A DNA stretch of 64,000 bases from Sugiyamaella lignohabitans (Eukaryota; Ascomycota; Dipodascomycetes; Dipodascales; Trichomonascaceae). Under the pieces are notes generated by a model, which was given only the letters and a program-made list of their open reading frames with translations, was not told the DNA's origin and did not search any database. Shown here in pieces: positions 417-61,917 of the stretch. A program made the position numbers and the translations under genes. How positions within the stretch are numbered: position 1 is the stretch's first letter; each line of letters opens with the position of its first letter. The stretch is from contig NC_031674.1 in assembly GCF_001640025.1 (NCBI RefSeq), positions 2,170,001 through 2,234,000 on the forward strand, written 5' to 3'.

Positions 417-588
417 TGCCTACGGCGGCTGGGGCTCTGCCCCAGACCCCGTGGCTCCTCTCGCTGCGCTCGAGTCGTTTCGCGACGGGCCGGTCAGGAT
501 TGAGACACTACAGGGACCGTAGACGCCCGACTCGAGCGCAGCGAGAGGAGCCACGGGGTCTGGGGCAGAGCCCCAGCCGCCGGAGGCA
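417..588. repeat. GC-rich palindromic element, locus 1
   Basis: An inverted repeat starting TGCCTACGGCGGCTGGGGC and ending GCCGCCGGAGGCA. Both arms carry the CTCGAGTCG-type tail hairpin. It lies between two convergent genes, 12 bp after one stop codon and 37 bp from the other. Confidence 0.95.
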
Positions 589-624
589 ATGAATGGCACG
601 ATAATGACTTATTAAATATCTAAT

Positions 625-2964
625 TTAAAATTGCGGGACAGACACTCCGGGTCGGCTGTTGATGGCATCGACGGTTCGCTCCACAAAGTCGTCGATTTCT
701 TGACCCTTACCGGTGACTTTGGCGCCCCACAGGTTGAAAAGAACCTTCTTGATTCCCAGGCCAAGCACCGAGCTGTTGGTCTCGGTCTGGATGCGCTTAA
801 TGATTTGCTCGTGCGATGGTGAATCTAAGAAGTTGGTCTGCTCGAAAATGTGTCTAAGGTCCTCGAGCGATGAAATGTTCGGCACGTAGATCTGATCATC
901 GATCACGTTGGGGAAGTCCATTCTTTCCAGCACTGCATAGTTCGACGTCGTCAAGAACACGATGAGTCGTCTGCTGTTGGGTGGTCGGTCCGTCAAACAC
1001 ACTTTCAAAGTCTGCAACACACCGTTGGAAAATCGGGGTCCAATGTTCACCCAGTCCAACATCGCCTCAATGTTATCGATAACAAGAACATTGACTTCCG
1101 ATTTGTAACTCTCTTGGAACATTTCCTTAAGATACCTGATCTTCTCCGCTTCCGTCATGCCGCCCATGGCACTAGGACTAATCAAACGGATGGTCTTGAA
1201 TCCAGATTGAAGCGCCATGTGTGAAGCAAGTGCCGTCTTACCCGATCCAGGAGGGCCATGGACGAGAACAGATGTAACTGGCGATTTATTACCAGCTTCT
1301 CTGACTTGCTCAAGAAGCCTGCTACCTTTAGACAGAATTGTTTCAATGTATGGTGAAAACTTGATGATACCACCGAGAACATTTGCAGACAGTCCATCTT
1401 CACTTACACCTAATGCAGGAGTGATTTCATCAAGAGCCCTCATGAAATGAACCCGAGTCACCTTGATATCTGTATTGTCGACCTTGATTTTATCCGAATC
1501 GGTTTTAACATGCGAATCCAACGCAAAACTTACAGCACTTCTAATAAGACCCTGGATTTCTGCACCAGTGAAGTTTTTGGTCTTGGATGCAAGTTCCTCC
1601 AACGAAACATCGGGACCCAGCATTTTTTCCTTAGCCATTTTAGCAGTGTGAATCGTGAAGATTTGTTTACGACCGTGCTCATCAGGCAAGGGGATTTCCA
1701 ATTGAACTTCGAAACGACCAGGACGAAGCAATGCCGAGTCAATAAGATCTCGTCTGTTGGTCATACCAATAACCAAAATGTTATTAAGCTGTTCAACACC
1801 ATCCATTTTAGCTAACAACTGATTGACAACATTGTCACCAACACCAGTACCATCACCACGAGAACCTCTTTGCTTGAACACAGCATCCAACTCGTCGAAA
1901 ATAATAATGTGCAATTGCGATTCGTCTCCTTTCTCTTTATACTCGGCCTCAGCGTCCTTAAACAGGTTACGAATATTCTCTTCACTGCTACCTACGTACT
2001 TGCTGAGCATTTCGGGACCATTTACAATCTTGGGCTCAACAGAGTTCAACATCTTTCCTATTTGACGGGCAATCAATGTTTTACCTGTACCAGGAGGTCC
2101 GTATAATAATAGACCCTTTACGTGCTGGATATTCAACTTTTCAATATCAGCAGGAGGGAAGATTCTACTAGCAAAAGCACGTCTGAAAATAGTACTGAAC
2201 TGTTCGTCCAAACCACCGATACCGGTATCGGAAAATTTAAAGTTAGGCTGAAGAATCGCATTGACACGAGGTCTGCTGCCGGATGCTTTAATATTAATCA
2301 AACCACCCTGAGGTTTAGAGAATGTGATTTCGGTGTGGTCGACAAGAATACCCCTTTCATCGGCCTTCAAAATGGACGAATGATCAGAGTCGGTAGCATT
2401 GATAGCACCACGAGTTCCTAAATCAACCACCTGGGTCGACAGAACCTTAATTTTGAAATTGCTTTGACTGAATTCCATGGCCAATTTTTGACCAGGAGCA
2501 AAAATTTGGTTCTTGTACAGAGATAGGAACCGCTTGGCCAGCTGGTCCTGATCGAACTGTGTAGGAACTGCTCTAGCACGAGAATAGAAATCGATTTCTA
2601 AACTCAATTCTCCAAGATAGACACGGCCATTTCCAGAAGCAAAAATATCAAATCCCTTGACAGTCACGTCCTGACGAAGCGACCAATTGGCCCATTCTCT
2701 CTGAGCACCTCCGGCACCAATGACATTAGGAGGCAAATTCGGTGCTACCCGAGCCGTAAAAACATACGTGTCATCTACAATCACGTACTGTCCATCTTTA
2801 AAAGGAGCAGCAGGAACCGCTAGAACATTATCAATCACGAACGACTGAGCTGGCGCATTCTCAACCGACGCTCTCAAAGTGGCGTGCACCGGCGACTGTG
2901 GGGCCGGTGCGGGCCGACGGGATGAGATGCCCGGATGTGATCTTCCAAAACCGAATTTTTCCAT
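625..2964 (-). CDS. SEC18: NSF-type vesicle-fusion AAA ATPase Sec18
   Basis: A 779-residue hexameric ATPase that, with Sec17/alpha-SNAP, disassembles SNARE complexes after membrane fusion in the secretory and endocytic pathways. The N-domain (about residues 1-220) is followed by the D1 AAA domain with Walker A GPPGTGKT at about 289-296, Walker B IIFDELD near 360, and the second region of homology TNRRDLIDSALLRPGR at about 402-417. The D2 domain has GPPGSGKT at about 570-577. Length matches the family (about 750-780). I chose ATG 2964 because MEKFGFG aligns with the usual short Sec18 N-terminus. The longer open frame up to 3201 reads through a palindromic repeat and a probable 5' UTR intron and is not likely protein. 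Confidence 0.97.
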   Translation of the reverse strand: MEKFGFGRSHPGISSRRPAPAPQSPVHATLRASVENAPAQSFVIDNVLAVPAAPFKDGQYVIVDDTYVFTARVAPNLPPNVIGAGGAQREWANWSLRQDVTVKGFDIFASGNGRVYLGELSLEIDFYSRARAVPTQFDQDQLAKRFLSLYKNQIFAPGQKLAMEFSQSNFKIKVLSTQVVDLGTRGAINATDSDHSSILKADERGILVDHTEITFSKPQGGLINIKASGSRPRVNAILQPNFKFSDTGIGGLDEQFSTIFRRAFASRIFPPADIEKLNIQHVKGLLLYGPPGTGKTLIARQIGKMLNSVEPKIVNGPEMLSKYVGSSEENIRNLFKDAEAEYKEKGDESQLHIIIFDELDAVFKQRGSRGDGTGVGDNVVNQLLAKMDGVEQLNNILVIGMTNRRDLIDSALLRPGRFEVQLEIPLPDEHGRKQIFTIHTAKMAKEKMLGPDVSLEELASKTKNFTGAEIQGLIRSAVSFALDSHVKTDSDKIKVDNTDIKVTRVHFMRALDEITPALGVSEDGLSANVLGGIIKFSPYIETILSKGSRLLEQVREAGNKSPVTSVLVHGPPGSGKTALASHMALQSGFKTIRLISPSAMGGMTEAEKIRYLKEMFQESYKSEVNVLVIDNIEAMLDWVNIGPRFSNGVLQTLKVCLTDRPPNSRRLIVFLTTSNYAVLERMDFPNVIDDQIYVPNISSLEDLRHIFEQTNFLDSPSHEQIIKRIQTETNSSVLGLGIKKVLFNLWGAKVTGKGQEIDDFVERTVDAINSRPGVSVPQF

Positions 2965-2978
2965 TGCCGCTTTTCTTT

Positions 2979-3206
2979 CTCCATTAGTTAGTATCCCCTG
3001 GTTCCTGGATTGGTGGCACTGCCTCCGACGGCTGGGGCTCTGCCCCAGACCCCGTGGCTCCCTCTCGCTTCGCTCGAGTCGTTTTTCGCGATGGTCGCAA
3101 GCAATCTCCTGCGAAGCAGGAGCAACGGGGTCTGGGGCAGAGCCCCAGCCGCCGGAGGCAACAATATCAAACCCGTCGATCCCAGTCGACCGGAAATTCA
3201 ACTTAC
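2979..3206 (-). other. Probable 5' UTR intron of SEC18
   Basis: On the minus strand a GTAAGT donor lies at 3206-3201. TACTAAC at 2993-2987 is followed 8 nt later by AG (2980-2979), just 15 bases upstream of the SEC18 ATG. I see no ATG in the nearest upstream 130 bases, so the preceding exon is probably untranslated. The palindromic element 3020-3160 lies wholly inside. The acceptor could also be one of the next AGs before the ATG. Confidence 0.65.
3020..3160. repeat. GC-rich palindromic element, locus 2 (in SEC18 5' UTR intron)
   Basis: The left arm TGCCTCCGACGGCTGGGG has a CTCGAG-type tail. The right arm carries the CTCCTGCGAAGCAGGAG hairpin and ends GCCGCCGGAGGCA. Neighbouring bases show no clear target-site duplication. 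Confidence 0.95.
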
Positions 3207-5844: not shown

Positions 5845-5980
5845 TGCCTCCGGCGGCTGGGGCGCTGCCCCAGACCCCGTTGCTCCTGCTTCGCAGGAGT
5901 TGCTGGGACCGTCGACGCCCGACTCGAGCGCAGCGAGAGGAGCCGGGGGGTCTGGGGCGCAGCCCCAGCCCCCGGAGGCA
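5845..5980. repeat. GC-rich palindromic element, locus 3
   Basis: The left arm has the CTCCTGCTTCGCAGGAG tail, then the spacer TTGCTGGGACCGTCGACG. The right arm has the CTCGAG tail and ends CCCGGAGGCA. It lies between the convergent stops of AIM7 (30 bp away) and the zinc-cluster gene (57 bp away). Confidence 0.95.
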
Positions 5981-6037: not shown

Positions 6038-9000
6038 CTAAAGAGTGCTTTCGGTGCACGAGGATTCGAAATTGAAGTAGTCGAGCCACTCGGGCTGGCA
6101 TGGCACTGGCAGTTCGGAGAAGGCGTCCAGTTCGTGCCAGAGCTGGTCGAGGTCCGAATGGCCAACCACTTGCGAGAGTGCTTTCACATTTCGGAGGGCC
6201 ATTAGCATGCTGATGTTCTCCTTCCAGGCACAGTAGGACGTGTCGACGAGCACTCGTGTTTCCTTGTATAGGGCAATGATAGTGGCCAGAGTGTGTTGTG
6301 ACACAGGGGTAGACGATTTTACGATCGAACTGGTAACCATCATCATGATTCTCATCCAGGCAGGGCGATTGAGTCGGAATATCTCGACAAGGAGATAGTA
6401 ATGTAGTGACGACAGTTTAGAAGCATTGCGAATCACGTCGCGCTGAATGGTCAATGCTTGAAGGGCACATTCGGTCATCTCGTCAGTATTGACACACCCC
6501 TGGACTCGCAGGAACGCCAGTCTGATTCGAAGGTACTTCAGGTACGAAACAGTCCGAATCACATAGCAGTGCTCCTCTCGGATGGTCAGGGAACTTTTTG
6601 ATTGAACTTTGATACGGGCTTCCTCATAAGCTAACATTCGAGCATGTTCAGCAGTCTTGAAAATGACATTGGTCTTTTCTAGATCAGGTGCAAGGAGTAG
6701 GTTGGCTGGAACGAGAAGGACTTGGTCAAGCAGATTACGACATGTTAGACACCATTCGAGATTGCTCCGCAAGAATGCTTTACCGAGAGATTCGTAATCA
6801 GCTAAAGTGCGGTCCTTTTCTCCGTCGGCAGGAAGGGCATCGTCATTCGTTGTACCCTCGTCATCGTCGTACAAACTGGTGTCAGAGTACTTGAGGTTGA
6901 TGAGGGGTGGGATACCGAGTTCTAGGGATTTGGCGGTATCAGCTATGACGGTCTGGCGCCAGAGGATTTTCCATAGTTGGTGAAACCGAACAGGGACTTC
7001 AGGGAAATTCGACGGGTCTCTGTGGAGTCCTATGGATAAAGTAGACTCGACAAGTTTGGAAATCAACGTTAATGGAGAAGCCGAGCTACCGGACATGTCG
7101 CTCGTGGTCAGGATCATATTAACAGCGCATAATAACAGTAGTTGGATGTACGTCAGGTTTCCTTCCAATTGGATATCGGTCATCGAAATAACTGATAACC
7201 CAAACAGCACGAGCTTCGGGCCAAGATATACCTGAGAGTCGTCGCGGATATTGTTGGTGACAGAGCTACAAGTCCAGTCACGAGGCAGAGAAATTCTTGC
7301 CAAGCGAAGACACAAAAGAATCAGACAGATTTTGTGGATCTCGATCTTGTCTAGATTATCGCCGACAGGACGGTGACGCTTCATTACCCATACATAGTTC
7401 ATGTCTTCTCGGAGAATCGAGGCAGTAGTCGAGTAGAACACAGTGTTCACAGAAGACAGGAATCGTTCAATGAGGAAATCACACACATCACGAGGAGGGA
7501 TAAAATCGAGCACTTTGTCCCATTCATTGATAGACGACTGTCCAGACGCCAATCGGTCAGCCAGAGCCTTGATTTGAAGCTCTTTTTCTAGCAAGTCGGG
7601 ACAATTAGGAGCTCCATATGCGCCATTTCCCGTCAATGGAAAAGCAGAAGTCTTCAGACTGTCCCAACTCTTTTTGTTTTCAGCGGCATTGAAGTTGAAA
7701 ATGGTGTACGCTTCAGGTGCTGAGTCGTCCAAACCACCACTAGTAGCCGCCGCAGCAGACGGTCCAAAGTAATTGATTCTGTTGAACTTGAACCGCAAAG
7801 TGGGTTTAAAAATATTTTCCACTAAAGATGGATTGCCAGAACCACCAGCATCCGATCTGTGCCCGCTTGAAAGGTTCGACGGAGAGGGTGTAGACCTAGG
7901 TCCTCCAAATACACCTGAACCAGCAGCAGAAAAGTCTCTATGAGCCCCATTGTCGGGGGGGAGCGAGTTGCCGAAACTTTGTTCTGGTTTAATCATGTCG
8001 GAGCTGGTGATTGGTCCATTTGAAGTAATAGCGCCAAGATCATTGAAAATAGTCGATGTAGCAGAGGCACCATCAGGCTTGGATTTGTCGTGGAGGTTCC
8101 ATTGAGGAGCAGCAACTCGGTAGAATCGTCTTGTCATGGGATTAAATATTTTAATGGTCTCGTTCTTTTTTACTGCTCCATTGGCAGCAACAGGACTGCT
8201 GGGTGTGGAATGACCGCCATTTCCAGTTCGCAGAGGGGAAAGTGTTTGATACACACAGCTTTTTTCGAGACGAAGTGCTTTACAGGTGCTACAAGGATGA
8301 CCCCTATCGCACTTTTGTTTCCTACTTCGACAAATCTGGCATGACAATGGTGTTCTTCGTCGCTTCCGAACAGTATTCATGGCTGATATAGTCTTGAAAG
8401 TAGCAATAGCGGCCGCTGCTAGTGCTGGATTGACATCAGAATTCGACCTTTCTCGCTCCTCACCGCCTTCGCCGACTTCACCGACTTCACCGACTTCTTC
8501 GCCTTCTCCACCCTCTCCACCTTCCCTGCCTTTTGTGCCTTCTCCCACTATTACTCCACTAACACCTGCCGGAATTGCACCATCTGCTGGTACAGTTGCA
8601 GCTGCTTGGTCTGTACCGCTCTCACTATCCGACTCCACAGGACAATCAACCCGACCACCAACTTGACCATCACCACGATCTTTCTCATTAACAGTAGAGC
8701 CCTGGTACGAAGGAGATATCGAGCTTGCCCCGGTAGTAGTCGAGCCATTTTCGGGTCTCGGAGATAATGCGGGAGACACTGACCCATCCGAAGACGGCGA
8801 ATGGGATACTGAACGACGGTCGGTAGGAAGAGGCAAGCTCGTGAAATTATGTTCAATCCCATTACCAACACCGGACCCCAGTCCTCCACTACTAATATTA
8901 CTTCCGGAGGCCGGACCTGTATTACTAATATCATTGCCATTAACATTGCCATGAGCACCAATATCGGAAAATCCATGATGACGACTACCCACTGAACCAT

Positions 9001-9262
9001 GACTATGATCAGGATTATGGCTATAATTATGATTTAATCCATTATTGTGGTGATTGTTGTTGTGTAATTGGTCTCCACCGACAGAAATGCGACTAACTGC
9101 CGAAGCACCTCCATTTCCACTGCTACTACCACTACTACTAGCACCACTACTAGCACTACTACTAGTATCAGCAGAATCGACCTGGATTTCAGGACTAGAA
9201 ACCAATCTTCCAACACTCATAGCATCTATTCCATTGCCAGACCTTAGAACCGGTTCTGTCAT
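6038..9262 (-). CDS. Zn2Cys6 fungal transcription factor
   Basis: A 1074-residue DNA-binding regulator. The zinc binuclear cluster has cysteines at 308, 311, 318, 324, 327 and 336 in SCQICRSRKQKCDRGHPCSTC, preceded by a basic KRRR. A fungal middle homology region follows (about 580-860, with IGLHRDPSNFPEVPVRFHQL). The PLSC.IC..RK..CD spacing resembles the Hap1/Oaf-type factors, but I cannot assign an orthologue. The first 290 residues are low complexity: serine/glycine and asparagine/histidine runs, then a repeated acidic GEVGEVGEGGEE stretch. A shorter protein could begin at Met294, just before the cluster. Target genes are unknown. Confidence 0.88.
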   Translation of the reverse strand: MTEPVLRSGNGIDAMSVGRLVSSPEIQVDSADTSSSASSGASSSGSSSGNGGASAVSRISVGGDQLHNNNHHNNGLNHNYSHNPDHSHGSVGSRHHGFSDIGAHGNVNGNDISNTGPASGSNISSGGLGSGVGNGIEHNFTSLPLPTDRRSVSHSPSSDGSVSPALSPRPENGSTTTGASSISPSYQGSTVNEKDRGDGQVGGRVDCPVESDSESGTDQAAATVPADGAIPAGVSGVIVGEGTKGREGGEGGEGEEVGEVGEVGEGGEERERSNSDVNPALAAAAIATFKTISAMNTVRKRRRTPLSCQICRSRKQKCDRGHPCSTCKALRLEKSCVYQTLSPLRTGNGGHSTPSSPVAANGAVKKNETIKIFNPMTRRFYRVAAPQWNLHDKSKPDGASATSTIFNDLGAITSNGPITSSDMIKPEQSFGNSLPPDNGAHRDFSAAGSGVFGGPRSTPSPSNLSSGHRSDAGGSGNPSLVENIFKPTLRFKFNRINYFGPSAAAATSGGLDDSAPEAYTIFNFNAAENKKSWDSLKTSAFPLTGNGAYGAPNCPDLLEKELQIKALADRLASGQSSINEWDKVLDFIPPRDVCDFLIERFLSSVNTVFYSTTASILREDMNYVWVMKRHRPVGDNLDKIEIHKICLILLCLRLARISLPRDWTCSSVTNNIRDDSQVYLGPKLVLFGLSVISMTDIQLEGNLTYIQLLLLCAVNMILTTSDMSGSSASPLTLISKLVESTLSIGLHRDPSNFPEVPVRFHQLWKILWRQTVIADTAKSLELGIPPLINLKYSDTSLYDDDEGTTNDDALPADGEKDRTLADYESLGKAFLRSNLEWCLTCRNLLDQVLLVPANLLLAPDLEKTNVIFKTAEHARMLAYEEARIKVQSKSSLTIREEHCYVIRTVSYLKYLRIRLAFLRVQGCVNTDEMTECALQALTIQRDVIRNASKLSSLHYYLLVEIFRLNRPAWMRIMMMVTSSIVKSSTPVSQHTLATIIALYKETRVLVDTSYCAWKENISMLMALRNVKALSQVVGHSDLDQLWHELDAFSELPVPCQPEWLDYFNFESSCTESTL

Positions 9263-9764: not shown

Positions 9765-9918
9765 TGCCTCCGGCGGCTGGGGCTCCGCCCCAGACCCTGG
9801 TTGCTCCTGCTTCGCAGGAGAATGGGGGCCTATAAGTGCGGGGGAAGGAGGGCAACCGACTCGAGCGCAGCGAGAGGAGCAGCCAGGGTCTGGGGCGGAG
9901 CCCCAGCCGCCGGAGGCA
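9765..9918. repeat. GC-rich palindromic element, locus 4
   Basis: A complete inverted repeat. The left arm ends in the GCTTCGC hairpin. The right arm has a CTCGAG tail and ends GCCGCCGGAGGCA. The spacer is divergent. Confidence 0.95.
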
Positions 9919-10223: not shown

Positions 10224-10284
10224 TGCCTCCGGCGGCTGGGGCTCCGCCCCAGACCCCGCTGCTCCTCTCGCTTCGCTCGAGTCG
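10224..10284 (+). repeat. Solo left arm of palindromic element, locus 5
   Basis: A left arm, TGCCTCCGGCGGCTGGGGC to CTCGAGTCG, with no right arm within the next several hundred bases. Confidence 0.9.
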
Positions 10285-10680
10285 GTTCGTCCACGATCCC
10301 AGTCTGTTTTTGGTGGTCCACCAGCCGCTGAGTTTGAGGCGCTTTTCCTGTTTACATGGGTCAGTCAAATTGCATGCTCTTTCGCTTCGCTAGCCGAGAT
10401 TTTCACCGCAATACTGCTGTCACATCCACACCATTCACTGAACAATTGCTAGCCCGTGTTTGCTCTCTAACTCGGTCTGGAACGAACTTCCCCGTGTACT
10501 ACCCTAAAATACTGACCCCGCTTATCACCCCGGCAAATGAACCGGCACCTGCTCATGCCAAGACTCTATCCAACCCTTTCAGTCAGCGTTCGTCATCGCA
10601 TGCTCGGAACTAAAATCACCCAATTTTTCCGACCGCCGCTAACGGCCCATTGGACCCCGCTGATCGCTGCAGGGGGTCTG

Positions 10681-11176
10681 TGCCTCCGGCGGCTGGGGCT
10701 CCGCCCCAGACCCCGTGGCTCCTCTCGCTGCGCTCGAGTCGGGTGTCGGGAGTGGGCTGAGCTGAGCTGGGCTGGGTTTGTGGGGAGAATGCGTGGTTTG
10801 GCTGTGGCTGGAGTTATGAAGTGACTGGCTGTTATGTAAGCATAACCAGTTAATTGTCACAAATAACCTTATCATTCGATAATTGAACTTGAACGGACGA
10901 CCCAGAACTGTTATATCTGTACCCGGAGCTGTCGCGGTAGATGCTGGAAATACTGTTTCCGACACAGTTTTTCCGGATCATTCGACTTTTCATCCACCAC
11001 CCCTGCGTCTGCATTCCATGTCGGCACTTACCAACCCCGAGCCCCGACACCCCCTCCACTCCCACAAACCCATACATCCACCAACCCCAACACCCATCCA
11101 GGGACCCCCAAACAACGACTCGAGCGCAGCGAGAGGAGCCGGGGGGTCTGGGGCGCAGCCCCAGCCGCCGGAGGCA
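10681..11176. repeat. Widely spaced palindromic arm pair, locus 6
   Basis: A left arm at 10681-10741 and a right arm at 11116-11176, separated by about 375 bp of unrelated sequence instead of the usual 15-50 bp spacer. Outside the arms GCAGGG/GGGTGTG on the left pairs with CACACCCC/CCCTGC on the right, which supports one expanded element. Confidence 0.75.
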
Positions 11177-12011: not shown

Positions 12012-12147
12012 TGCCTCCGGCGGCTGGGGCTCCGCCCCAGACCCCGCTGCTCCTCTCGCTGCGCTCGAGTCGGCCGTCGATGGTCCCAGCAACTCCTGCG
12101 AAGCAGGAGCTACGGGGTCTGGGGCAGAGCCCCAGCCGCCGGAGGCA
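12012..12147. repeat. GC-rich palindromic element, locus 7
   Basis: Complete: a left arm with CTCGAG tail, spacer CCGTCGATGGTCCCAGCAA, and a right arm with CTCCTGCGAAGCAGGAG tail. It starts 52 bp after the NDUFS6 stop. Confidence 0.95.
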
Positions 12148-12269: not shown

Positions 12270-13363
12270 ATGGACGCAGCAGCGCTACGAGAACGTCGCA
12301 AGGCGCGAATCCAGGCCGGCGGAGCCTCACGACTCAGTAAAATCACTAAAACGACCCGTCCAGAGGCCGAGGACTACAAAGGTGGGTGTTTTTAGGGGAC
12401 GGGGGGGTGCCTCCGGCGGCTGGGGCTCCGCCCCAGACCCCGTGGCTCCTGCTTCGCAGGAGTTGCTGGGACCGTCGACGAAACGACTCGAGCGCAGCGA
12501 GAGGAGCAGCGGGGTCTGGGGCGGAGCCCCAGCCGCCGGAGGCATCAGCCCCCTGTAGAACCCCGGCGACAGATGCTAACCAGTTGCCAGATCATATTGT
12601 GCCAGTGGCTAGAACCGAGTCCGAGAACTTGTCTCAGAATCAAGTGCAGTTGCCAGTGGCACGGGAATTGGGTGAAGGAGTGGATATGGACGCGGATCCT
12701 GATATTATGGTTCCGGAGGATATGGCCAGTGACCCGCTGTTTAAACTGTTGAGTGAGATGCGGGGTGCTGGTTCTGCTCCTAGAAATGGTGCTGGCGATG
12801 AAAATGGTGCTGCCGGGTCTGGAGATCTGCCAGCTGACCCACTGGCGGCGTTGTCTGCTATGTTTGGAGGTGCGGATGGAGCTGGTGGTGCGTTCCCATT
12901 TGGCGATGCTGGTGCTGGGGGTTTCCCTGGAATGGCTGGTAACGGTCCTACTGGTCAGAAATCGGCGACTCCGGTGAGAAAAAGCGATGTTTTATGGACT
13001 TTGGTGCATATCGTGACCAGTATCTCGCTCACTGTGTACTTCCTACTCTCCAGAAAGGCTGCTATTGCCACAAACTCAGTACCCAGCTCGGTGTCCTCTT
13101 CTTTGGTGGTGCTTTTCTGTACTGCTCAAGTAGCACTTCATTCGGCCCGGTTTGTGCTCGAAAAGGGCTCACCACCATCCAACTCCAAAATCGTATCTCT
13201 TGCATCGTTCCTGCCCAACCCGTTCCGGCAGTACGTAATTCTGCTGGCCCGCTATCTGCACATCGGCCGGGTCATTGTCGAAGACCTCTGCATCACTCTG
13301 TTCGTAATCGGCATATATTTCGGTCTGGCCAACGGCCGGTCCGAACTCCTGGACGTTAATTAA
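12270..13363 (+). CDS. GET2: GET complex membrane subunit Get2, two exons
   Basis: Get2 and Get1 form the ER receptor for Get3, which delivers tail-anchored membrane proteins. Exon 1 (12270-12381) encodes the cytosolic Get3-binding tip: MDAAALRERRKARI, then GGASRLSKIT, as in fungal Get2. Exon 2 (12591-13363) has a D/A/G-rich linker. It then has three hydrophobic segments near the C-terminus (around LWTLVHIVTSISLTVYFLL, SSLVVLFCTAQVALHSARF and DLCITLFVIGIYFGLA). The joined protein is 294 residues. The GTGGGT donor is at 12382. I place the acceptor at 12590, 10 nt after CTAAC and in phase. An earlier in-phase AG at 12572 would add six residues. The intron holds a whole palindromic element. Confidence 0.9.
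12382..12590 (+). other. GET2 intron carrying a palindromic element
   Basis: The intron starts GTGGGT and ends GCTAACCAGTTGCCAG, with the branch-point-like CTAAC 10 nt before the AG. About two thirds of its 209 nt is the palindromic element 12408-12544. Confidence 0.8.
12408..12544. repeat. GC-rich palindromic element, locus 8 (in GET2 intron)
   Basis: Complete: a left arm with GCTTCGC hairpin tail and a right arm with CTCGAG tail. It is flanked by a G run on the left and CCCCC on the right, which extend the palindrome. Confidence 0.95.
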
Positions 13364-13389: not shown

Positions 13390-13525
13390 TGCCTCCGGCG
13401 GCTGGGGCGCTGCCCCAGACCCCGTGGCTCCTGCTTCGCAGGAGTTGCTGGGGCCGTCGACGCCCGACTCGAGCGTAGCGAGAGGAGCAGCGGGGTCTGG
13501 GGCGGAGCCCCAGCCGCCGGAGGCA
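13390..13525. repeat. GC-rich palindromic element, locus 9
   Basis: Complete and well conserved, starting 27 bp after the GET2 stop and lying between convergent genes. The left tail is GCTTCGC type and the right tail CTCGAG type. Confidence 0.95.
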
Positions 13526-13987: not shown

Positions 13988-16923
13988 TTTAGTTTTTAGT
14001 TTTTAAACTTTAGATTTTAGATTCTAGTGCCGAATCAAATGTATACCAGTGATTAGATTCAGGTTGATTGATGCTAACGAGTGAAGTGAGATAGTTCTGC
14101 TTTGTAGCGGAGTTGCTGTTGGTATGAGCTCAGTGCTAGGTGTTGCAGTTATTATAATTGAAGTGATCTAGGTATCCAGGTTATCAGGATTTTGGAGATA
14201 ACAGATAAGTAACAGCAAACTGAGTAGTTTCTGTCTATTAATACAATTACGTTATTTACATGGTATCGAAGGACGGATGAGTATGCTTGGGTGTGGCAGG
14301 ATGTTTATTGGTCGATGGGTTTGTAATTCGTCAACCATGTGGATGAGCAGATATGCTTGCCCTTATATAGCCACACACCCAGTCCCTAACTAGTAGTTCC
14401 TATGACCGATTATTTACGCAAATAATATTCCTGGCATGGCGATACCTTGGCGCAACCCCTGTGTTGAGATATTTGGCGATTGAGTCATCTGGTGAGATAG
14501 ATCGCACTAACTGCCGCCTCATCGTTGCATGCAGCATCATGCAGGGATCTCACCATGACTACAACTTTATTATTTCCAGATGAACTTTATTTACCATCAA
14601 TCTACAAACAAACTTTTTGCTGCACTTATTTTATTTTATTTATTCAACCACACAGTTCTGCTCTAGATCCTATAGTCATTCATACTTCGCGGCAGACTGC
14701 CGGGACCGTCGACGTGACGACTCGAGCGCAGCGAGAGGAGCTGCGGGGTCTGGGGCGGAATCCCAGCCGCCGGAGGCACTAGTGGCGTTAAAACTTAAAA
14801 TGAATCATTCAAGATATACAGTGACTCGTTCTGATTTATTTAACAATTAGAATATTGGTCAGCTATAGTGGGCTTGTCGGTGTGTAGGCCGGGTAACAAT
14901 TCCCCTGGCTAGCCAGTATGACTGAGAAACCTAGGTTACTGCTGATATAATTAGAATAAAATAATAAAAAGATAGCCGATGGATATCATGCACACCACAT
15001 GCTCATCGTCACGTATGCAGTAAAATAATTGCCCTGGGATTGCTGGGATTGCTGCTGGTTTACCAGATTAACAGATTAGCTGCATCCACCACCTTATCTG
15101 TACTTGTGCATATCATGATTACGCACATGTCATATAATGTGGAGTCGTCCGGGTAACCTGGTGATGCGTGGGGAGGTCACACAGCGACTCGGCATGTGAT
15201 TGCGAGCAGATAGGTATATGAGGAGGTGTGTGACCAGAGGCTTAATAGGTGAGCGGGAAATCCCGTGCTATAGCTAGATAATTCAACGGCAGTTTCCACA
15301 AAAATGGGTGCATTCATGAAAGAATCCATCAAGGTTTTTGACCACTTAGATTTCAAATTTTAACGCGTAGGTGGCACTGGTAGCTAGACCCACCGTCCCA
15401 CTGGGCTGTGGACTGACAGAAAATTGCTGGTTGTCTATAAATAAAGCACCAACAGCCCGGTTTTCCGACCCTACCGATATTATCGGTCATGATTTGTCAC
15501 ATAAAGTGGACTATGAAAAGACACCATTGAAGATAGTGAATCCATGATAATTCGGTCATGAGAGAGGTCGTGGTCGTACTACTATGATTAACTGAGTGGT
15601 GAATATGTCCACTAGTGATTCAGCAAAGCGTGAAAAAGAAATGTATGGGAAATTGATAAGGGCAAGGGAGGTAGGATTGAAAAGGGAATACCTTTACTGC
15701 ACAATTGTAATATCCACTGTTTAATGAGATTAGCCAGTGATAAATTGGAATAAAGGATAAACGAGATAAGAGTTGTCATTGGTTAGGATATTAAAGAAAA
15801 GTTTGGATTCGTTCACCACTTGAACCGCTATTCTGTCGGTAATAAGAAAGCTTACTCTTCCAACCGAAACGTGCAAGATAGTAGAAAACGTACGCACCCA
15901 AGATAGGGTGACGTTGGCTTGACTACTACTGACAAGATAGCCCGATGAAGGAGAATACCGAAGGTGCGGATTCGTTCACCACCTTTTGTGGCGCCAATCT
16001 TTAGTAAATGTATTTTACTTATAATAAATTATTTAATTAATACTATAGTAAACTTGGGCCAGGGCCAGTTGATAGAGAGGTGAATGCATGACGTCATGTA
16101 CTTGTTGCTCTCTACTAGGAAACCAATAGATAGTTTGAAGTAAAGCATCCCTGTGATATATCGAGTTTTATTAATAGTTGTATCCGATTTATATCAAGCT
16201 AACAATCCCTCTGTTAATACGTATGCCTGTTGAAGCTAATATTTAATCGGATAAAAATGTCGTCGATCGCAATTACCCGGATTTTAGAAATCATACAGAC
16301 TACAGGGCGTGCTTTCGCATGCCTGGATCAATGGTGCGTGAAGATTAGTGGTAGCGATATCTCTGATTTTATAAATTCTCTATTGTCTTAAATACCCCTA
16401 GGACTACATTGGGTGTTGAAAGGAAAGCTTAAATTGGAGAAGAAGAGGTTCAAAAAATATGAATAAATTTATTTACACACGTGCCAGTTGGAAAACCATC
16501 ATATCGCCTCAAACTCCAACATCAAAAGTAAGTAGCAGATTCTAGGGGCGGACCGGGGCTACAACCCTGGAAGGAGGATGTGAGAAGAGGTTGTTATTCG
16601 AAGTGCAAGATAGTGCCACCTCTTAAATAGACCAATATCGACGATTAGTACGTTCTAGGGGTGTATGATACGGATTTGCGGTTAACTAATAAAGAAGTTA
16701 ATGAAAGAGAGTATGCTACCTCTGTCTGAATTATTTCGCTCACTAGTTCGCTTAAAAGTTAGTATACAACTTTGATGCCTGTATAACTCCAACTACTTAC
16801 TCTCTCCGTTTTTGTTCTCTATTTTTTATAGATACCCACCCACCTTCCAGACCGAACCTAGAATTGTCTCTAAATGCTGCTACTTACCCTCATATTTATC
16901 TTTCCCTTCTCGCTAACTCCTAG
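13988..16923. other. Gene desert, left part
   Basis: No gene recognised. Mostly AT-rich, with one degenerate palindromic arm at 14685-14778. The phrase GGATTCGTTCACCAC occurs twice (about 15808 and 15967), the second followed by TGTGGCGCCAATC. This might be a decayed repeat, but I cannot define its ends. Confidence 0.55.
14685..14778 (-). repeat. Solo right arm with partial spacer, locus 10
   Basis: The remnant runs from a degraded CTTCGC hairpin through GGGACCGTCGACG and a CTCGAG-tail arm to GCCGCCGGAGGCA. The left arm is missing. Confidence 0.85.
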
Positions 16924-17820
16924 TTCGTCGCCGAGTTGGTATATATAACCCTGTTTTATACCGGTCAACCTATTTTGGCCCCTAGTATAAACCCGACACC
17001 TTCTGCCAAGTACTGGCTTCCAGTGCACTCCCGCCCGACCAGGGTTCTTATACCTCCCTCGGTTTTATTAGTATTCTACAGCTTCGGTGACTTACCCTCT
17101 TTGTCCTTGATTATATCCTTGACTTCTTTATTTTCCAACTGAATTGATTATATATTTTTGGTTCGCCCCCGAGCTGGTGTATACAACCCTGTTTTATACC
17201 GGCCAGCCATTATTGACCCCTAGTATAAACCCGACACCTTCTGCCATATATTGGCGTCCAGTGCACTCCCGCCCACCAGAGCTGTTTCACCCCTCGGTTT
17301 TATTAGTATAACTCTAGCTCGGTGACTTACCCTCTTTGCCCTTGACTATACCCTTGACTTCTTTATTTTCCAGTTTTGCCTTGGATTGATTATTTTTTTG
17401 GTTCGCCCCGAGCTGGTGTATACAACCCTGTTTTATACCGGCCAGCCTATATCGACCCCTAGTATAAACCCGACACCTTCTGCCATATATTGGCGTCCAG
17501 TGCACTCCCGCCCACCAGAGCTGTTTCACCCCTCGGTTTTATTAATATAACTCCAGCTTCGGTGACTTACCCTCCTTGTTCTGGTTTCCCCTCTGGATTT
17601 ATTTTCCAATTATTCGTTTTGACCATCTATTCTGTCTCCGCTATATTGATCTCTGGACCGCCCCCGAGCTGGTATATACAACCCTGTCTTATACCGGCCA
17701 GCCTATATCGACCCCTAGTATAAACCCGACACCATCTGCCATATATTGGCTTCAGATGCACTCCCACCCACCAGAGCTGTTTCACCCCTCGGTATCATTT
17801 GTACTTGTCCCGCTTTGGTG
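16924..17820. repeat. Tandem repeat of about 240 bp, four copies
   Basis: Units begin near 16924 (TTCGTCGCCGAGTTGG), 17162 (TTCGCCCCCGAGCTGG), 17402 and about 17657. The last is partial. Each unit contains AACCCTGTTTTATACCGG, CCCTAGTATAAACCCGACACC and TGCACTCCCGCCCACCAG in the same order. Units differ by scattered substitutions and small indels. There is no consistent reading frame across units. Confidence 0.9.
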
Positions 17821-27931: not shown

Positions 27932-27932
27932 A

Positions 27933-43210: not shown

Positions 43211-43394
43211 GCGGTGTCACTGGGTTCAGGAGTCACACCGGTATCAGCGATGGATTCTGGCTACGAGTTGGACTGTTTATTCTGTCCAGAATGGGTACTG
43301 TTTTTTTTTTCGAGAACGGAGATCGTTTCCATAGCGATCGCCCGACCAGACACGCAAGTATCGGAACGAGCTTCTACGACATCGGAGATGCCTG

Positions 43395-43535: not shown

Positions 43536-43916
43536 AATGCCCACCCACCACTACCCGTCAACGGTGGGTTCGTGAGATTTCAGAAGCTGCATGCGCGAGA
43601 TGACCCTGCAGGTCCCACTGGAAAAAAACTCTTTCCAAGAACCCGGGATTGAAAGCTTTTGACCTGGTCGACGTGAAAAATTTTCATGTCACGCTCGGCG
43701 TCCGAATGAAACATACGGTCAGAGAGGGACTGTAACGGCATTTCCAGCTGCTCGAGCAGGCTGTTCGAGCAGCTGTTGCTCCTCTCTCGGCCAACTGCCA
43801 ACTGAAGACTCCATTCACTCACTCAAACCCACTCTCGACAGAACAGCCAATATCCTGCTAACCGACCTAAAACCACACCTCACCGACCATGCACCTGCCA
43901 GGACCCTGACGACAAC

Positions 43917-43970
43917 GCTCGCGAAGCGAGCACCACGGGGTCTGGGGCGGAGCCCCAGCCGCCGGAGGCA
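43917..43970 (-). repeat. Solo right arm, third tail type, locus 23
   Basis: GCTCGCGAAGCGAGC followed by ACGGGGTCTGGGGCGGAGCC and GCCGCCGGAGGCA. No left arm nearby. Confidence 0.9.
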
Positions 43971-44209: not shown

Positions 44210-44373
44210 TGCCTCCGGCGGCTGGGGCTCCGCCCCAGACCCCGCTGCTCCTCTCGCTTCGCTCGAGTCGGTGCGCCGGGATCCCAGGATCGGGATATTG
44301 AACTCCCATACCCCACGCCGCTCGCGAAGCGAGCACAACGGGGTCTGGGGCAGCGCCCCAGCCGCCGGAGGCA
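44210..44373. repeat. GC-rich palindromic element with mixed tails, locus 24
   Basis: A left arm with CTCGAG tail and a right arm with GCTCGCGAAGCGAGC tail. The spacer is longer (about 50 bp). It ends 24 bp from the BOS1 stop. Confidence 0.9.
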
Positions 44374-47448: not shown

Positions 47449-47504
47449 ATATATACATGTTAATAAATAATACACGAGGTGCCAAGTTTTGGTGGATGGG
47501 ACCC

Positions 47505-47565
47505 TGCCTCCGGCGGCTGGGGCTTCGCCCCAGACCCCGCTGCTCCTCTCGCTGCGCTCGAGTCG
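47505..47565 (+). repeat. Solo left arm, locus 26
   Basis: TGCCTCCGGCGGCTGGGGCTTC with CTCGAGTCG tail, starting 57 bp after the LYS9 stop, between convergent LYS9 and PRP38. No right arm found. Confidence 0.9.
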
Positions 47566-47746
47566 GGTGCCTACGGGACAGCAGCGTTTATAATACAACC
47601 TCAAATAGCCACATATGACAGCAGAAAGGTGTCAAGACAAAGCTGGTAAGGTTAGAGGGTGGTCTACCGACAGCACCTCAATTCGAAAGCTCAGCATGCT
47701 CAAAATGGTCAACCCATTCAACCATCTAAATAAAGGCAGGTTGAGA

Positions 47747-48879: not shown

Positions 48880-49375
48880 ATGCAGGGATCATGCAGGCCC
48901 TGCGTCTGATAACGCAAGGCTGTGCATTATTTGTTTACATGCGTACCCCTGAGATAGCTGGTCCGAACCCGAGTGTGTGGGTTCAGGATAGAAAATAACG
49001 GATCCAACCACACACTGGTGACGGAAGATGTTTGGCAATGAACACAGCTGTTCGTTGACTGTCAATTGACTCCAATTATGGGCGTTTTGACGGGTGGTTC
49101 ATAGGTGGACCCTGAGGACCCTGGATGCACGGATGCGCCGCTGCGGGTAAGGGGATCATGTGCTCTGTGCTCGCTGATTATTTGAATGATGCATGAATTC
49201 CCACTTTCTGCTTCTTTCTTCTCTCTTTTCTCTTTTTTCTTCTCCAGTAGGAAAGTGTGTGAAAGGACTGCAAGACTCGTTAAGGACTGTTTTTAGGATT
49301 ATTTTTACCTGATTTTTCGGTTGAATCACTATTTATCAACTGTTTGTGAACATTACTATTAGTTTGTTGTTTGCA

Positions 49376-50452
49376 ATGATTGGGTACACTCAGTGTGTCA
49401 ATTGGCTGTTTGGGCTGTTTAAGCCGAGGGAGACTATGTCTAAGGAACTTGTTGTGTTTGTTGAGCCTTACAAGGAGTTGGCAGTGATTGAGAAGGTTAT
49501 TAAAGATGTTATTGTGAGTGTTAAGGATTTGGTTGTTGTTATTCCTAGTTGCCAAGACTTGGTTGTTGTTGTTCCTACTTGTCAAGACTTGGTTGATGTT
49601 GTTCCCACTTGTAAAGACTTGGTGGTTGTTACTAGGGAGTTTTCACCAATGCCAGTTGTTATTGCGAATTTGAATAGATATTTCATTCCCAGTTGTATTC
49701 GTTTGATTATCAGTTTATTATTTGGGCTGATTATATTTTCAATGGTATATCGGAAAGAGATACACCAATTTGGTTGGCATTACTGGTCTACTGTGAAAGT
49801 TGTTGTTTGTAGGGCGGTCCAGGAAGAAGTGGCCCCGATTATTGACGCATGGTATTATATCTCACACCAAGAAATGTCCCCGATTATTGAGAGATGGAAT
49901 TATATTTCAGAACAGATTCACAAGTTGAAGAAACAAGTCAGCAGTTGGGGAGTTAGAGCCCAATCAGGGGATGATGAACACGAACAATTGAGAGACCAGG
50001 AAGAAAACCACGCAGAGACTGAGCCCAGCCAAGAAGAAGAAGAAGAACCGGCAACCAGCACAGTGGAACCTTATCCGGACTACTTTGAACCTGACGCCGA
50101 GAGTGGCTACAGTATTGAGTTGTGTGAAACATTAGTTGAAAGTCAATTCACGGTGAAAGAAGAAGAACCAGTCAAGTTCAAATTTTCAATGGCCCCCATC
50201 GTTATCCCACAACAAACATTTGGTGAACGTCTATATGGGGCACTCAGACCCCGGGGCGCAGATGAAGTATTAGGTATCAAAGACTTTCAATCATCATCAC
50301 TGTATTATCATTATCGGTTCAGTACTAAGATCGATGGTATCAAGCGGGCATTTTGGGCCCCTATCAGTCAACCTCCACCACCTCTTCCACTTTCATCCTC
50401 ACCACCTGGCTCCTCTTCCGGGAGCTTGGATGGTACCCAGTTAAACTACTGA
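49376..50452 (+). CDS. Unknown membrane protein X, copy B
   Basis: A 358-residue paralogue of the protein at 32581-33630. From the first ATG the order is MIGYTQCVNWLFGLF, then four 10-residue units (DLVVVIPSCQ, DLVVVVPTCQ, DLVDVVPTCK, DLVVVTREFS; about 51-90). A transmembrane helix follows at about 107-125, then the twofold EEVAPIIDAWYYIS / QEMSPIIERWNYIS motif. Next are a heptad-like stretch (ISEQIHKLKKQV), an acidic segment and a Pro/Ser-rich tail ending LDGTQLNY. It has one 10-residue unit more than copy A. No catalytic motif or known domain is visible. Intact frames in both copies argue for a functional or recently functional gene. Confidence 0.65.
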   Translation: MIGYTQCVNWLFGLFKPRETMSKELVVFVEPYKELAVIEKVIKDVIVSVKDLVVVIPSCQDLVVVVPTCQDLVDVVPTCKDLVVVTREFSPMPVVIANLNRYFIPSCIRLIISLLFGLIIFSMVYRKEIHQFGWHYWSTVKVVVCRAVQEEVAPIIDAWYYISHQEMSPIIERWNYISEQIHKLKKQVSSWGVRAQSGDDEHEQLRDQEENHAETEPSQEEEEEPATSTVEPYPDYFEPDAESGYSIELCETLVESQFTVKEEEPVKFKFSMAPIVIPQQTFGERLYGALRPRGADEVLGIKDFQSSSLYYHYRFSTKIDGIKRAFWAPISQPPPPLPLSSSPPGSSSGSLDGTQLNY

Positions 50453-50575
50453 TTGAATGTCAGACTGATCTAGCGTCCCATTAATTCTGGTCCACATCTC
50501 TACATCAAGGCACTTCGGTTCTATTTTGTTCCAACACTTGTAATTTCCGGTTCCTGAAACGACAAATGGTGTTTC

Positions 50576-50651
50576 GCGCCTCCTTGGCTGCGATTCATCG
50601 ATCAACGACATTGGAAGAACACTGTTTATGCGCCTCCTTGGCTGCGATTCA
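50576..50651 (+). repeat. 22-bp direct repeat downstream of gene X, copy B
   Basis: GCGCCTCCTTGGCTGCGATT plus CA at 50576-50597 and 50630-50651, separated by 32 bp. The same arrangement occurs in copy A. Confidence 0.9.
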
Positions 50652-51049
50652 GTGATGGAACCCCAATCGGAAAGAGAATCGGAATTACTTTGATCTAGGA
50701 AGTAACAGAAGTCGCCCAGTAGTAGAGACCAATGAAATGGAGGCGCTAACGATCAGTCGGACAGAATCAGTAAAACAATCACAATTATTTATTAATAGAC
50801 GGACACCAGGACTAATTATGACTTTAACTCTTTTGTACTTTATTCTTTGTAATAGCATCAATAAAATTTTAATTATAATATTTTTCACAGAGCTACCAGC
50901 AACTAGAAGAGCCGGAGGCTCATGCACATTTAGTTTACAAAAGAAGAGATAATATTAATCAAGTAAGAACCTTTAAGGCAAGAGAGATGAGACCAGAATA
51001 CAAGGCCAGATCAGTAGTTAATGGCCAAGTTGATCAAGACTGATCAATG

Positions 51050-57260: not shown

Positions 57261-57398
57261 TGCCTCCGGCGGCTGGGGCTTAGCCCCAGACCCCACTGCT
57301 CCTCTCGCTGCGCTCGAGTCGGTTCCGTCGACGGTCCCAGCAGTCTCCTGCGAAGCAGGAGCCACGGGGTCTGGGGCGGAGCCCCAGCCGCTGGAAGC
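57261..57398. repeat. GC-rich palindromic element, locus 28
   Basis: A left arm with CTCGAG tail, spacer TCCGTCGACGGTCCCAGCAG, and right arm with CTCCTGCGAAGCAGGAG. The outer right end is altered to GCCGCTGGAAGC. Confidence 0.95.
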
Positions 57399-58421
57399 CG
57401 CACCCTACACCCGCGAGACAGGAACTGGCCCTGATCTCAGTGTGAATTGCCTGATTCCAGCTGCCACAGAAAGCCAAGATAATTTTAGTTGTGCGGTGAG
57501 GGGCCGTTGGGGTGACGTATAACCTAGCCCAAGACGTGGTGTGTCGATGACGCTAGGACGAAACGAGGGTGCGGCAGGCAGATTGGAAATTGGCTAATTT
57601 TAGAGTTTGGCAAAAATGCGGAAATATGTAAACAAACAGCGGGCAACGTGAAAAATTTAACGGCTGGGCCGACCGATTTTATACGTGGTGAACGGGATAT
57701 TATCACGGGAGCAAGTTAGTAGTGGGAGCAACCAAGCTCGTCGTCGACACGCATCGATTTCAGGTATCGAGAATGAGAAGAAAAGCCCGAGTTTGTGAGT
57801 GAAGTTTCTCCTGTAAAAGGGGTGCAAAGAACCAGTGAGCCGGTTTACAGATTGTGACGTGCGAGTGACAATGACGAGTCCTCTGAGCCGCGAACAGGAG
57901 CCTGCCTGCCCAGGTGGGCCAGCAGGAGCCAAAAGAGTAAGATCGGAAGTGTCAGCTGCTGTCCGATAAAGCGAGTCTGCCAGGGAACCTGAAACGCAGC
58001 TGCAAGTGCACCTGGAGTCCAAACCTCGTATTTCGCGCTGGCTGCGATGCTGATCCAGCGCGATCTGTTGTTTGGGAGATCCTGTCAGAAATCAGGGCAG
58101 GGGCGAACCCTTGATCGCAGGATCGGCTCTCCGGGGGCACGAAGCAGTTGAGCGTCTGTTCAGGAGGTGGTCATTTATCCACACTTTTTGTCCTTTTTTT
58201 TACGTAAATGCACACAAATCTTATAACTACCTTCCAACCGGAACAACCTAGTCCCTCGAGTTACAAACTCCGTTCCCGGAAGCCTACTGGCAATAGAGTT
58301 GCAGTGGTTGGCGAAGCGTGAATGCCCCCTCAAGCGGGACGTGCGGGCCATCCGTCCCTCCATCTCAGCACTTCCGGCATGTAGCAGCAGCGTAAACTCC
58401 CCCCCGGCATCAGCCCACCAG

Positions 58422-58559
58422 TGCCTCCGGCGGCTGGGGCTCCGCCCCAGACCCCGTAGCTCCTGCTTCGCAGGAGAATGGTGGCACCGTCGACGGCCCG
58501 ACTCGAGCGAAGCGAGAGGAGCAGCGGGGTCTGGGGCGGAGCCCCAGCCGCCGGAGGCA
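58422..58559. repeat. GC-rich palindromic element, locus 29
   Basis: Complete: GCTTCGC left tail, spacer with CCGTCGACGG, CTCGAG right tail. Intact outer ends. Confidence 0.95.
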
Positions 58560-61012: not shown

Positions 61013-61150
61013 TGCCTCCGGCGGCTGGGGCTCCGCCCCAGACCCCGCTGCTCCTCTCGCTGCGCTCGAGTCGGTTGCGTCGACGGTCCCAGCCATCTCC
61101 TGCGGAGCAGGAGCTACGGGGTCTGGGGCAGCGCCCCAGCCGCCGGAGTC
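61013..61150. repeat. GC-rich palindromic element, locus 30
   Basis: A left arm with CTCGAG tail, spacer TGCGTCGACGGTCCCAGCC, right arm with CTCCTGCGGAGCAGGAG. The outer right end is eroded (GCCGCCGGAGTC). It starts 93 bp after the UTR2 stop. Confidence 0.95.
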
Positions 61151-61506
61151 TCTCTCACCCCCTGAATGACCCCTGAAAAACGATCGGCGGTCACCGTGCA
61201 GGTGGAGAAGGGGGCCAACGGCGGCGGTTGGAGGGGCTGGATGAAATCTGTCGAAACAGGCAGGAGGGGTACCGAGTACGGTACGAATTGGAGTCGGCTT
61301 TAGAGGAGGTGTCTTGCCGCTGTATGTATATTGTCGTCAGCTTTGTGTGGCCTTTATAGTAAAATTTATTAGCGGAGAGATTTTATTGCGGGACCCGCCT
61401 GTCAGCTTGAGGTGAGATAACCGATTATTGCCGGTCATGGTTTCTGGGTAATAGCCACTACAAACACAGTTAAACTGAAATCAGCTGAGAGATGGATTGT
61501 GGTTGG

Positions 61507-61538
61507 CGGCGGTGGTGGTGGTGGTGGTGGTGGTGGTT
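61507..61538. repeat. GGT microsatellite
   Basis: About ten consecutive GGT-type triplets in non-coding DNA. Confidence 0.9.
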
Positions 61539-61778
61539 CGGCGCTCTGACCGAGACAGGAGCCAAGCCAGGGTTCGGTCGACAAGCATGCCCACCCCTAT
61601 CTCGCACGGCGGGGCTCTGCCCCTCGCATGGCAGATCGGACAATCGCCAGATCTCAGATCAATTTGTTCTAAACTATGCTAAACGCGAGATCTGGCAGAT
61701 CGCTTCCGGCCCTGGATTGGGTCTGCATAGCCAGATGCAAGCGGTCATAAACCACAACAACCGGCTGACGGGCTGGTG

Positions 61779-61917
61779 TGCCCCCGGCGGCTGGGGCTCT
61801 GCCCCAGATCCCGTAGCTCCTGCTTCGCAGGAGATGGTTGGGACCGTCGACGGAACCGACTCGAGCGAAGCGAGAGGAGCAGCGGGGTCTGGGGCGGAGC
61901 CCCAGCCGCCGGAGGCA
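61779..61917. repeat. GC-rich palindromic element, locus 31
   Basis: Left arm TGTGCCCCCGGCGGCTGGGG (outer end altered) with GCTTCGC tail, spacer GGGACCGTCGACGG, intact right arm with CTCGAG tail. Confidence 0.95.

Follow-up and report, generated by a model that had tools for sequence, protein, structure and literature searches.

The nuclear genome of the yeast Sugiyamaella lignohabitans harbours a non-coding palindromic element whose arm recurs, letter for letter, in a few unrelated bacteria. The element is described here from a stretch of 64,000 nucleotides, called the window, which corresponds to bases 2170001–2234000 of contig C2 in an assembly of 15.93 Mb in four contigs. It is probably a mobile palindrome of a kind that resembles the REPINs, with an arm shared by bacteria and the yeast nucleus and amplified in the latter to thousands of copies. 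The identity of the arm in such hosts suggests transfer of a mobile hairpin between bacteria and the nucleus of a eukaryote; to our knowledge, no case of non-coding mobile DNA common, letter for letter, to these two settings is on record.

An arm common to bacteria and a yeast nucleus

Yeast arms are characterized by a fixed order of parts: a 12-nt tag, (T)GCCTCCGGCGGC, is followed by a TGGGGC-NNN-GCCCCA hairpin, a GACCCC or GACCCT end and a tail hairpin. In the 304 kb of yeast DNA that were read in detail, equivalent to ∼2% of the genome, 240 arms were picked that have the tag, with no more than one mismatch, and a 6-bp stem that pairs perfectly. The stem is TGGGGC in 239 of these, the loop measures 3 nt in all 240, and the end is GACCCC in 152 and GACCCT in 74. 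A first-pass annotation of the window, made from its letters, had described a GGGGC-TNN-GCCCC hairpin followed by ACCCCG; a GGGGC-NNN-GCCCC hairpin and an ACCCC end are confirmed.

The pattern search of the whole genome that had been proposed beforehand establishes the family as high-copy. The exact 19-mer of the arm occurs 5,342 times (2675 + 2667), the exact full arm, with 30 fixed bases, 3,480 times, and the looser pattern of GCCTCCGGCGGC, 5–35 bases and GACCC 5,852 times; the reversed pattern gives 0 in each case. The first hairpin is identical to the consensus in 243 of 271 readable arms, as expected of a recently spread element, and such near-identity fits recent spread and early decay. 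The contig that holds the window is 4.96 Mb long with nuclear-type genes and is therefore not mitochondrial DNA (mtDNA). The earlier portrait of a non-coding, nuclear, high-copy, asymmetric and mobile-like element stands on all these points.

The exact 19-mer is also present in at least 120 stretches of prokaryote contigs. Among the matches listed, most continue as full arms and many are paired in inverted orientation; some, for example in Streptomyces, occur without the rest of the arm. Full arms were counted in ten genomes with a pattern of 28 fixed bases and a loop of 2–8 nt, the reversed control being 0 in all ten. Five alphaproteobacterial genomes carry 42–268 full arms with the 12-nt tag, the TGGGGC stem and the GACCCC end: an Acetobacteraceae metagenome-assembled genome (MAG) accommodates 268, Alphaproteobacterium PA4 214, the Sphingomonadales MAGs D8 and bin40 180 and 47, respectively, and the isolate Polymorphobacter multimanifer 42. 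Two full arms are found in a Burkholderiales MAG, one each in Solidesulfovibrio and a Deltaproteobacteria MAG, and none in Azospirillum and Streptomyces.

The consensus starts with GCCTCCGGCGGC and ends with GACCCC in yeast and bacteria alike. Bacterial arms form inverted pairs, 79 of 93 of which span 95–129 bp; the set assembled for the search of target-site duplications held 83 bacterial doublets. The bacterial loop is mostly 5 nt long (176 of 202; lengths of 3, 4, 6, 7 and 9 also occur), in contrast with the 3 nt of the yeast arms, and within a bacterial element the two arms have matching loops in 18 of 74 cases, more than in any shuffle (mean 6.4, maximum 16). As the bacterial inverted pairs have other loops and lack the yeast tails, neither set of sequences contaminates the other.

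That the two arms converged by chance or through structural stability is hardly credible. One half of a hairpin is partly set by pairing with the other and small-loop, GC-rich hairpins are stable, yet 24 positions free of pairing constraint are fixed (12 in the tag, six in the choice of stem and six in the GACCCC end), and reversed controls give 0 in the full-arm searches of yeast, the ten bacterial genomes and the class and phylum samples described below. Sequence comparison suggests instead that the yeast arm is homologous to a palindrome family with a patchy distribution in Alphaproteobacteria and Desulfovibrionaceae.

Among plasmids, five Streptomyces records show short GC-rich matches (E 8e-3), and phages gave no match to the arm. 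The 19-mer is present in three viral contig records, two with bacterial-type full arms and one without; the two, IMG/VR contigs L026 and L027, are a possible vehicle between bacteria. A yeast-tail pattern has one match in viral contigs, which lacks the tag. Rfam searches of eight bacterial loci returned 11 matches, all under their own gathering scores; the c-di-GMP-I-GGC riboswitch match in Solidesulfovibrio (L051:5537–5621) reaches 58.9 bits, just under the gathering score of 59. No paper containing the longer arm letters was found in the literature searched, whose coverage mostly leaves out subscription journals; texts with two of four arm pieces of 10–11 bases are unrelated by title, and topic searches, judged by title and the start of the abstract, yielded no description of this palindrome family.

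Architecture of the yeast element

The complete element is an inverted doublet: 74 of less than 200 bp are present in 264 kb and 87 of up to 210 bp in 304 kb. The first-pass annotation had joined a CTCGAG-type tail, here tail A, to a second type around a spacer with GTCGAC. This arrangement holds, as tail A is joined to CTCCTGC-TTC-GCAGGAG, here tail B, in 53 of the 74 shorter elements, and GTCGAC is present in the spacer of many copies. The A-to-B elements lie in the two chromosomal directions in nearly equal numbers (27 versus 26).

Tail B, tail C and several minor types are perfect hairpins with stems of 5–8 bp and a TTC or similar loop of 3 nt, whereas tail A, CTCTCGCTNCGCTCGAG, is an imperfect one, so that the earlier description of the tails as hairpins applies in full to B and C only. 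A perfect stem of at least 5 bp with a 3-nt loop is found in 110 of 263 tails, against six of 263 when shuffled. The stems pair as CTCCTGC/GCAGGAG, GCTCGC/GCGAGC, GCTCCGC/GCGGAGC, GCTCTGC/GCAGAGC and CTCTTGC/GCAAGAG. As both sides of the stem differ together among tails, the three tail types that had been named, all of them real, are part of a larger set that includes GCTCCGC-TTC-GCGGAGC and GCTCGCTTCGCTCG. Differing combinations of tails were also observed, as reported, and recombination is a possible cause.

Complete elements are predicted to fold end to end as a single hairpin under DNA parameters, as two copies in the window illustrate (z −7.5 and −10.2). Folded alone, an arm with tail B has a z of −3.7. 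Agreement between the loops of the two arms of a yeast element (41 of 76; shuffled mean 33.3, maximum 47) lies within chance.

Siting at the ends of genes

Elements of this family are concentrated just past stop codons. Yeast genes were taken as open reading frames (ORFs) of at least 200 aa, of which eight of 87 with an internal arm were removed, leaving 79. A threshold of 100 aa is unusable for siting, since it places 33 of 87 yeast elements within ORFs (four of 87 at 200 aa). The control consisted of arms rotated through non-coding space, with 300 rotations. An arm lies 0–100 nt past the stop in 44 of the 79 genes (rotated mean 12.1, maximum 26) and in 29 of 44 ORFs of at least 400 aa, with a peak at 40–60 nt (17 versus 2.2 expected). 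Ahead of the start codon, arms are found at five genes, against 12.2 after rotation. Eighteen of the 20 stretches read on contig C1 were picked for arm density; the window and a stretch of contig C4 were not so picked, and here seven of 13 and nine of ten genes, together 16 of 23, have an arm past the stop. At the arm-free end of C1 none of six genes does.

An analogous siting is observed in bacteria. Of 586 bacterial ORFs of at least 150 aa, 85 were removed, and in 58 of the remaining 501 the distance from stop codon to arm is at most 20 nt, against a mean of 10.9 and a maximum of 21 for rotated arms; ahead of the start the count is 11, against 10.3 after rotation. An initial polarity of bacterial single arms (11 to 2) was dropped, as a fair window, which includes some chance 19-mer matches, gives 12 to 10.

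These patterns raise the question of whether the arm is in essence a transcription-termination or mRNA 3′-end module, under selection in bacteria and yeast alike, spread by gene conversion and mobile only secondarily. Such a module is unlikely, although it would account for the strong siting past stop codons in both domains, for the yeast single arms, whose tag points toward the gene in 14 cases and away in two, and for a place in three Desulfovibrionaceae, described below, where the tag is kept while the stem is replaced and still paired. It sits poorly with the 35 of 79 yeast genes that have no arm within 100 nt of the stop and with the finding that, among the relatives of the bacterial carriers that were sampled, almost none has the arm. 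Moreover, stem mismatches on the arm strand of yeast copies show no excess of G.U pairs (13 G.T versus 20 A.C in the first hairpin, three versus seven in tail B), so that selection on a transcribed structure is not indicated.

Insertion marks and candidate mobilizing genes

Target-site duplications of 2–20 bp are absent above the level of shuffled pairing at 87 yeast elements (largest z among 19 lengths 1.94, at 17 bp), in a separate test of 74 yeast elements, and at 79 bacterial elements (largest z 0.95). There is no excess of 2- or 3-bp direct repeats at the yeast elements, and the AG or ACT flanks of mitochondrial GC clusters are thus not matched. The resemblance to these clusters noted earlier could mean that a GC-cluster type element moved from yeast mtDNA to the nucleus, as in the Volvox palindromes. 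Short GC-rich palindromes are patchy across yeast mtDNA in the part of PMC5499181 available, and organelle-to-nucleus spread has been reported for Volvox, as cited in the accessible text of PMC4524435. An origin of this kind is nevertheless very improbable: the known yeast clusters lie between direct repeats of AG or ACT in the text of PMC4478555 at hand, and the identity of the arm points to present-day bacterial families. The label of mitochondrial GC cluster thus falls on two counts, the nuclear location and the missing direct repeats.

The flanks of the element are distinctive in other respects. A G-rich tract precedes the yeast arms at about −13 to −3, and the 25-nt outer flanks account for 2.2% of the bases in the 304 kb and for 34 of the 55 G4-N(1–2)-G4 motifs there. 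The left flank is complementary to the right one when the two are aligned in exact register (z 3.8–3.9; one of 2000 shuffles is as high), two others of the 13 registers also exceeding a z of 2 (−6: 2.8; +5: 2.1); in long yeast pairs the z is 1.4 (n = 21). In bacteria the tract ahead of the arm is purine-rich (A/G), with flank pairing at a z of 0.5 in exact register and of 2.4 and 2.2 in two other registers. The yeast G tract may be either a palindromic target or an outer stem that belongs to the element and changes fast.

The elements could also be ordinary miniature inverted-repeat transposable elements (MITEs), that is, copies that have lost the interior of a DNA transposon with long terminal inverted repeats, the transposase being encoded elsewhere in the yeast genome. 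The inverted termini, high copy number and lack of coding capacity are those of a MITE. A recurrent gene would then be anticipated between some inverted arms, and none that convinces was found in 304 kb of yeast DNA and 866 kb of loci from bacteria and the viral collection; together with the missing duplications this makes a MITE improbable, and the label is not upheld for the DNA read, although a lone autonomous copy may have escaped a reading that covered ∼2% of the yeast genome. Between inverted arms lie 16 bacterial and three yeast ORFs, of which one has a single match elsewhere and one has four. The latter, a yeast ORF of 102 aa, was rejected as the gene of an autonomous element, as the ORF itself reads through an arm.

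Two multi-kilobase duplications were considered as autonomous copies and likewise rejected: they contain duplicated orphan-looking genes, one of which has just two copies in the genome. This gene, a ∼360-aa ORF, is carried by each copy of an inverted duplication in the window (32033–34123 and 48880–51003, 94% identical); it has no Pfam match, and the one copy that was searched against proteins has no homologue at E 1e-3. An arm is located 17 nt past one copy of this duplication and a degenerate arm ∼130 nt past the other. The second, an inverted 2.7-kb duplication (C1:321903–324594 and C1:376088–378774, 91%), contains a ∼400-aa ORF, and its similarity ends inside palindromic elements, as if these were breakpoints of segmental duplication. 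Neither duplication offers a usable empty site.

Exchanged stems in a wider bacterial family

The distribution of the arm among relatives of the carriers is sparse. The class, order and family names given here for the genome samples are those that we take to apply from the named genomes at their centre. The exact arm is absent from 288 other genomes sampled from the class of Polymorphobacter and from 296 others from the phylum of Solidesulfovibrio. In the order of Polymorphobacter two other genomes of 157 have one looser match each, and the reversed control has matches in another two. Within the family of the Acetobacteraceae MAG the looser pattern occurs in 21 of 120 genomes and the reversed control in 14; repeated hairpin-forming copies are confined to three genomes, namely the MAG itself (329 matches), G862 (21) and G937 (5). 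The stem is mostly CAGGGG..CCCCTG in G862 and AAGGGG..CCCCTT in G937. Across these Acetobacteraceae the stems vary on both sides (T..A, C..G, CA..TG, AA..TT) and the tag and the GACCCC end stay constant.

An analogous picture emerges from the family of Solidesulfovibrio, where GCCTCCGGCGGCNRGGGG is present in 36 of 79 genomes, with up to 189 copies and a control of 0. Ten loci were fetched from this family: seven have the order tag, hairpin, GACCC, two lack it and one is truncated. The stems in Desulfovibrionaceae are wholly different and still paired. At one locus aligned across three genomes (75–78% DNA identity) one tag and a GGACC end are in place throughout, while the stem has given way to others that also pair. 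Two of these genomes share a second tag close by, and the remaining one does not offer a clean empty site. As the stem is exchanged while tag and end stay, these are the constant parts of the family and the hairpin between them is exchangeable.

Interpretation

Several observations weigh against a mobile, shared palindrome. The Y1 transposase (PF01797) was detected in none of six genomes, the yeast included and the Desulfovibrionaceae left out (five of 14 named control genomes are positive), no convincing recurrent gene lies between inverted arms in the DNA read, and no clean pair of empty and filled sites and no polymorphism was found by which mobility would be demonstrated. An arm with tail A, folded alone, behaves like shuffled sequence (z −0.9). 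The yeast polarity of single arms has no counterpart in bacteria, and four yeast tail and spacer motifs number 0, 0, 1 and 0 in the bacterial loci, against 82, 137, 22 and 27 in the yeast sample. The tag fixed at one place across three Desulfovibrionaceae species looks like an old resident feature, and its persistence is no less compatible with a long-standing functional feature than with a mobile one. Furthermore, the 19-mer served to retrieve the bacterial loci, and the identity of tag and stem is therefore built in; this selection does not bear on the GACCCC end, on the pairing of arms in inverted orientation, on the copy numbers, for which the controls are zero, or on the relatives recovered with looser patterns.

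With these points taken into account, a mobile REPIN-like palindrome is still the explanation that we favour. The element or its arm would have passed between bacteria and the yeast nucleus, in either direction, and would then have been amplified in yeast to thousands of near-identical copies. The inverted pair would fold back as a single-stranded hairpin, a putative enzyme would recognize the tag together with its hairpin, and the unit would be inserted without duplication of the target site. Insertion may favour the region just past stop codons, or copies may survive there, where they would be tolerated or perhaps useful as 3′-end hairpins. A more far-reaching proposal, which we put forward tentatively and hold to be rather less likely, is that one family of tagged mobile palindromes inhabits bacteria and a eukaryotic nucleus, is passed horizontally as naked hairpin DNA and in yeast marks roughly every second gene at its 3′ end; it would represent the first eukaryotic REPIN-like element, with an enzyme unrelated to Y1.

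If common descent is true, something moves this hairpin in both worlds, and a comparison of carriers with non-carriers could reveal the enzyme. The family would also offer a testable case of a mobile hairpin turned into a common feature of gene 3′ ends, in which stems are replaced wholesale and the tag is kept.

Copies in the window

With up to three mismatches the arm start, TGCCTCCGGCGGCTGGGGC, has 48 matches in the window, whereas 100 dinucleotide shuffles give a mean of 0.02 and a maximum of 1. These arms comprise 16 inverted pairs of 135–172 bp (32 arms) and 16 others, which are lone or belong to widely spaced pairs. The dense family reported by the first-pass annotation is therefore real, and its count of 31 loci is corrected to 32 (16 complete elements and 16 other arms). 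An additional degenerate copy is located near 27018.

Complete elements that run from tail A to tail B are found on the forward strand at 3020–3160, 43395–43535 and 57261–57399, as well as at 12012–12147 (folding z −10.2) and 61013–61151 (folding z −7.5). On the reverse strand they occupy 5845–5980, 58 nt beyond the stop of the ORF at 6038–9262(−), as well as 9765–9918, 12408–12544, 13390–13525, 25012–25147, 58422–58559 and 61779–61917. Other combinations of tails characterize the remaining complete copies. The element at 417–588, to which no strand is assigned, has tail A on both sides, and the ORF at 625–3201(−) ends 37 nt off. The element at 34141–34275(−) combines tail A with a diverged tail, 26 nt beyond the stop of the ORF at 34301–36655(−). 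That at 41684–41826(−) combines tail A with CTCTTGC-TTC-GCAAGAG, a variant of tail B in which both sides have changed, and that at 44210–44373(+) runs from A to C.

Single arms with tail A lie on the forward strand at 10224–10300, 10681–10760, 28648–28725, 36778–36855, 39191–39268 and 47505–47582, and on the reverse strand at 11100–11176, 14700–14778 and 37075–37152, the last 30 nt beyond the stop of the ORF at 37182–38261(−). Tail C is carried by the single arms at 40886–40960(+), 39430–39506(−), 41450–41524(−) and 43895–43970(−). A short GCTCGCTTCGCTCG tail is present at 43153–43230(+) and a variant tail at 46075–46153(−), 48 nt beyond the stop of the ORF at 46201–47604(−); the single arm at 29000–29077(−) is degenerate.

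Local direct repeats of several hundred bases, 79–83% identical, occupy 16923–17820, and no Rfam match above the gathering score was obtained in the window.

Comparison with known systems

The yeast element shares with MITEs its inverted termini, non-coding nature and high copy number, and differs from them in the lack of target-site duplications and of a related autonomous element in the 304 kb of DNA read. Yeast mitochondrial GC clusters (GC42 and others) are likewise short GC-rich palindromes with near-identical copies, proposed to be mobile and flanked by AG or ACT, as far as the available portion of PMC4478555 extends; the present element is nuclear, measures ∼139 bp, consists of two inverted arms and has no AG or ACT direct repeats.

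A parallel on the bacterial side is provided by the CGTC-tagged REPs, which are palindromic, have a tag at one end, predominate in Alphaproteobacteria and have no dedicated transposase known, in the part of PMC3733652 available; the same text places many REPs downstream of coding regions. The arm described here agrees in palindromic structure, in the tag at one end, in the occurrence in Alphaproteobacteria and in the want of a known dedicated transposase, and differs in that it has another tag, is longer, has a conserved GACCCC end, is paired and is present in a yeast.

REPINs are inverted doublets of short palindromes, extragenic, predicted to form one hairpin, high in copy number and non-autonomous, according to the accessible text of PMC3116915. 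The yeast and bacterial arms carry the tag GCCTCCGGCGGC rather than GTAG or CGTC, no Y1/RAYT gene was detected in the six genomes searched, the element is also present in a eukaryotic nucleus, and in yeast it has a second tail hairpin. Given the differing tag and no detected Y1 transposase, it would work like a REPIN and is not classed as one. The likeness lies in the plan of the whole: tagged palindromes are paired in inverted orientation about a spacer, and the unit is non-autonomous and extragenic, has a predicted fold into one hairpin and is present in high copy number.

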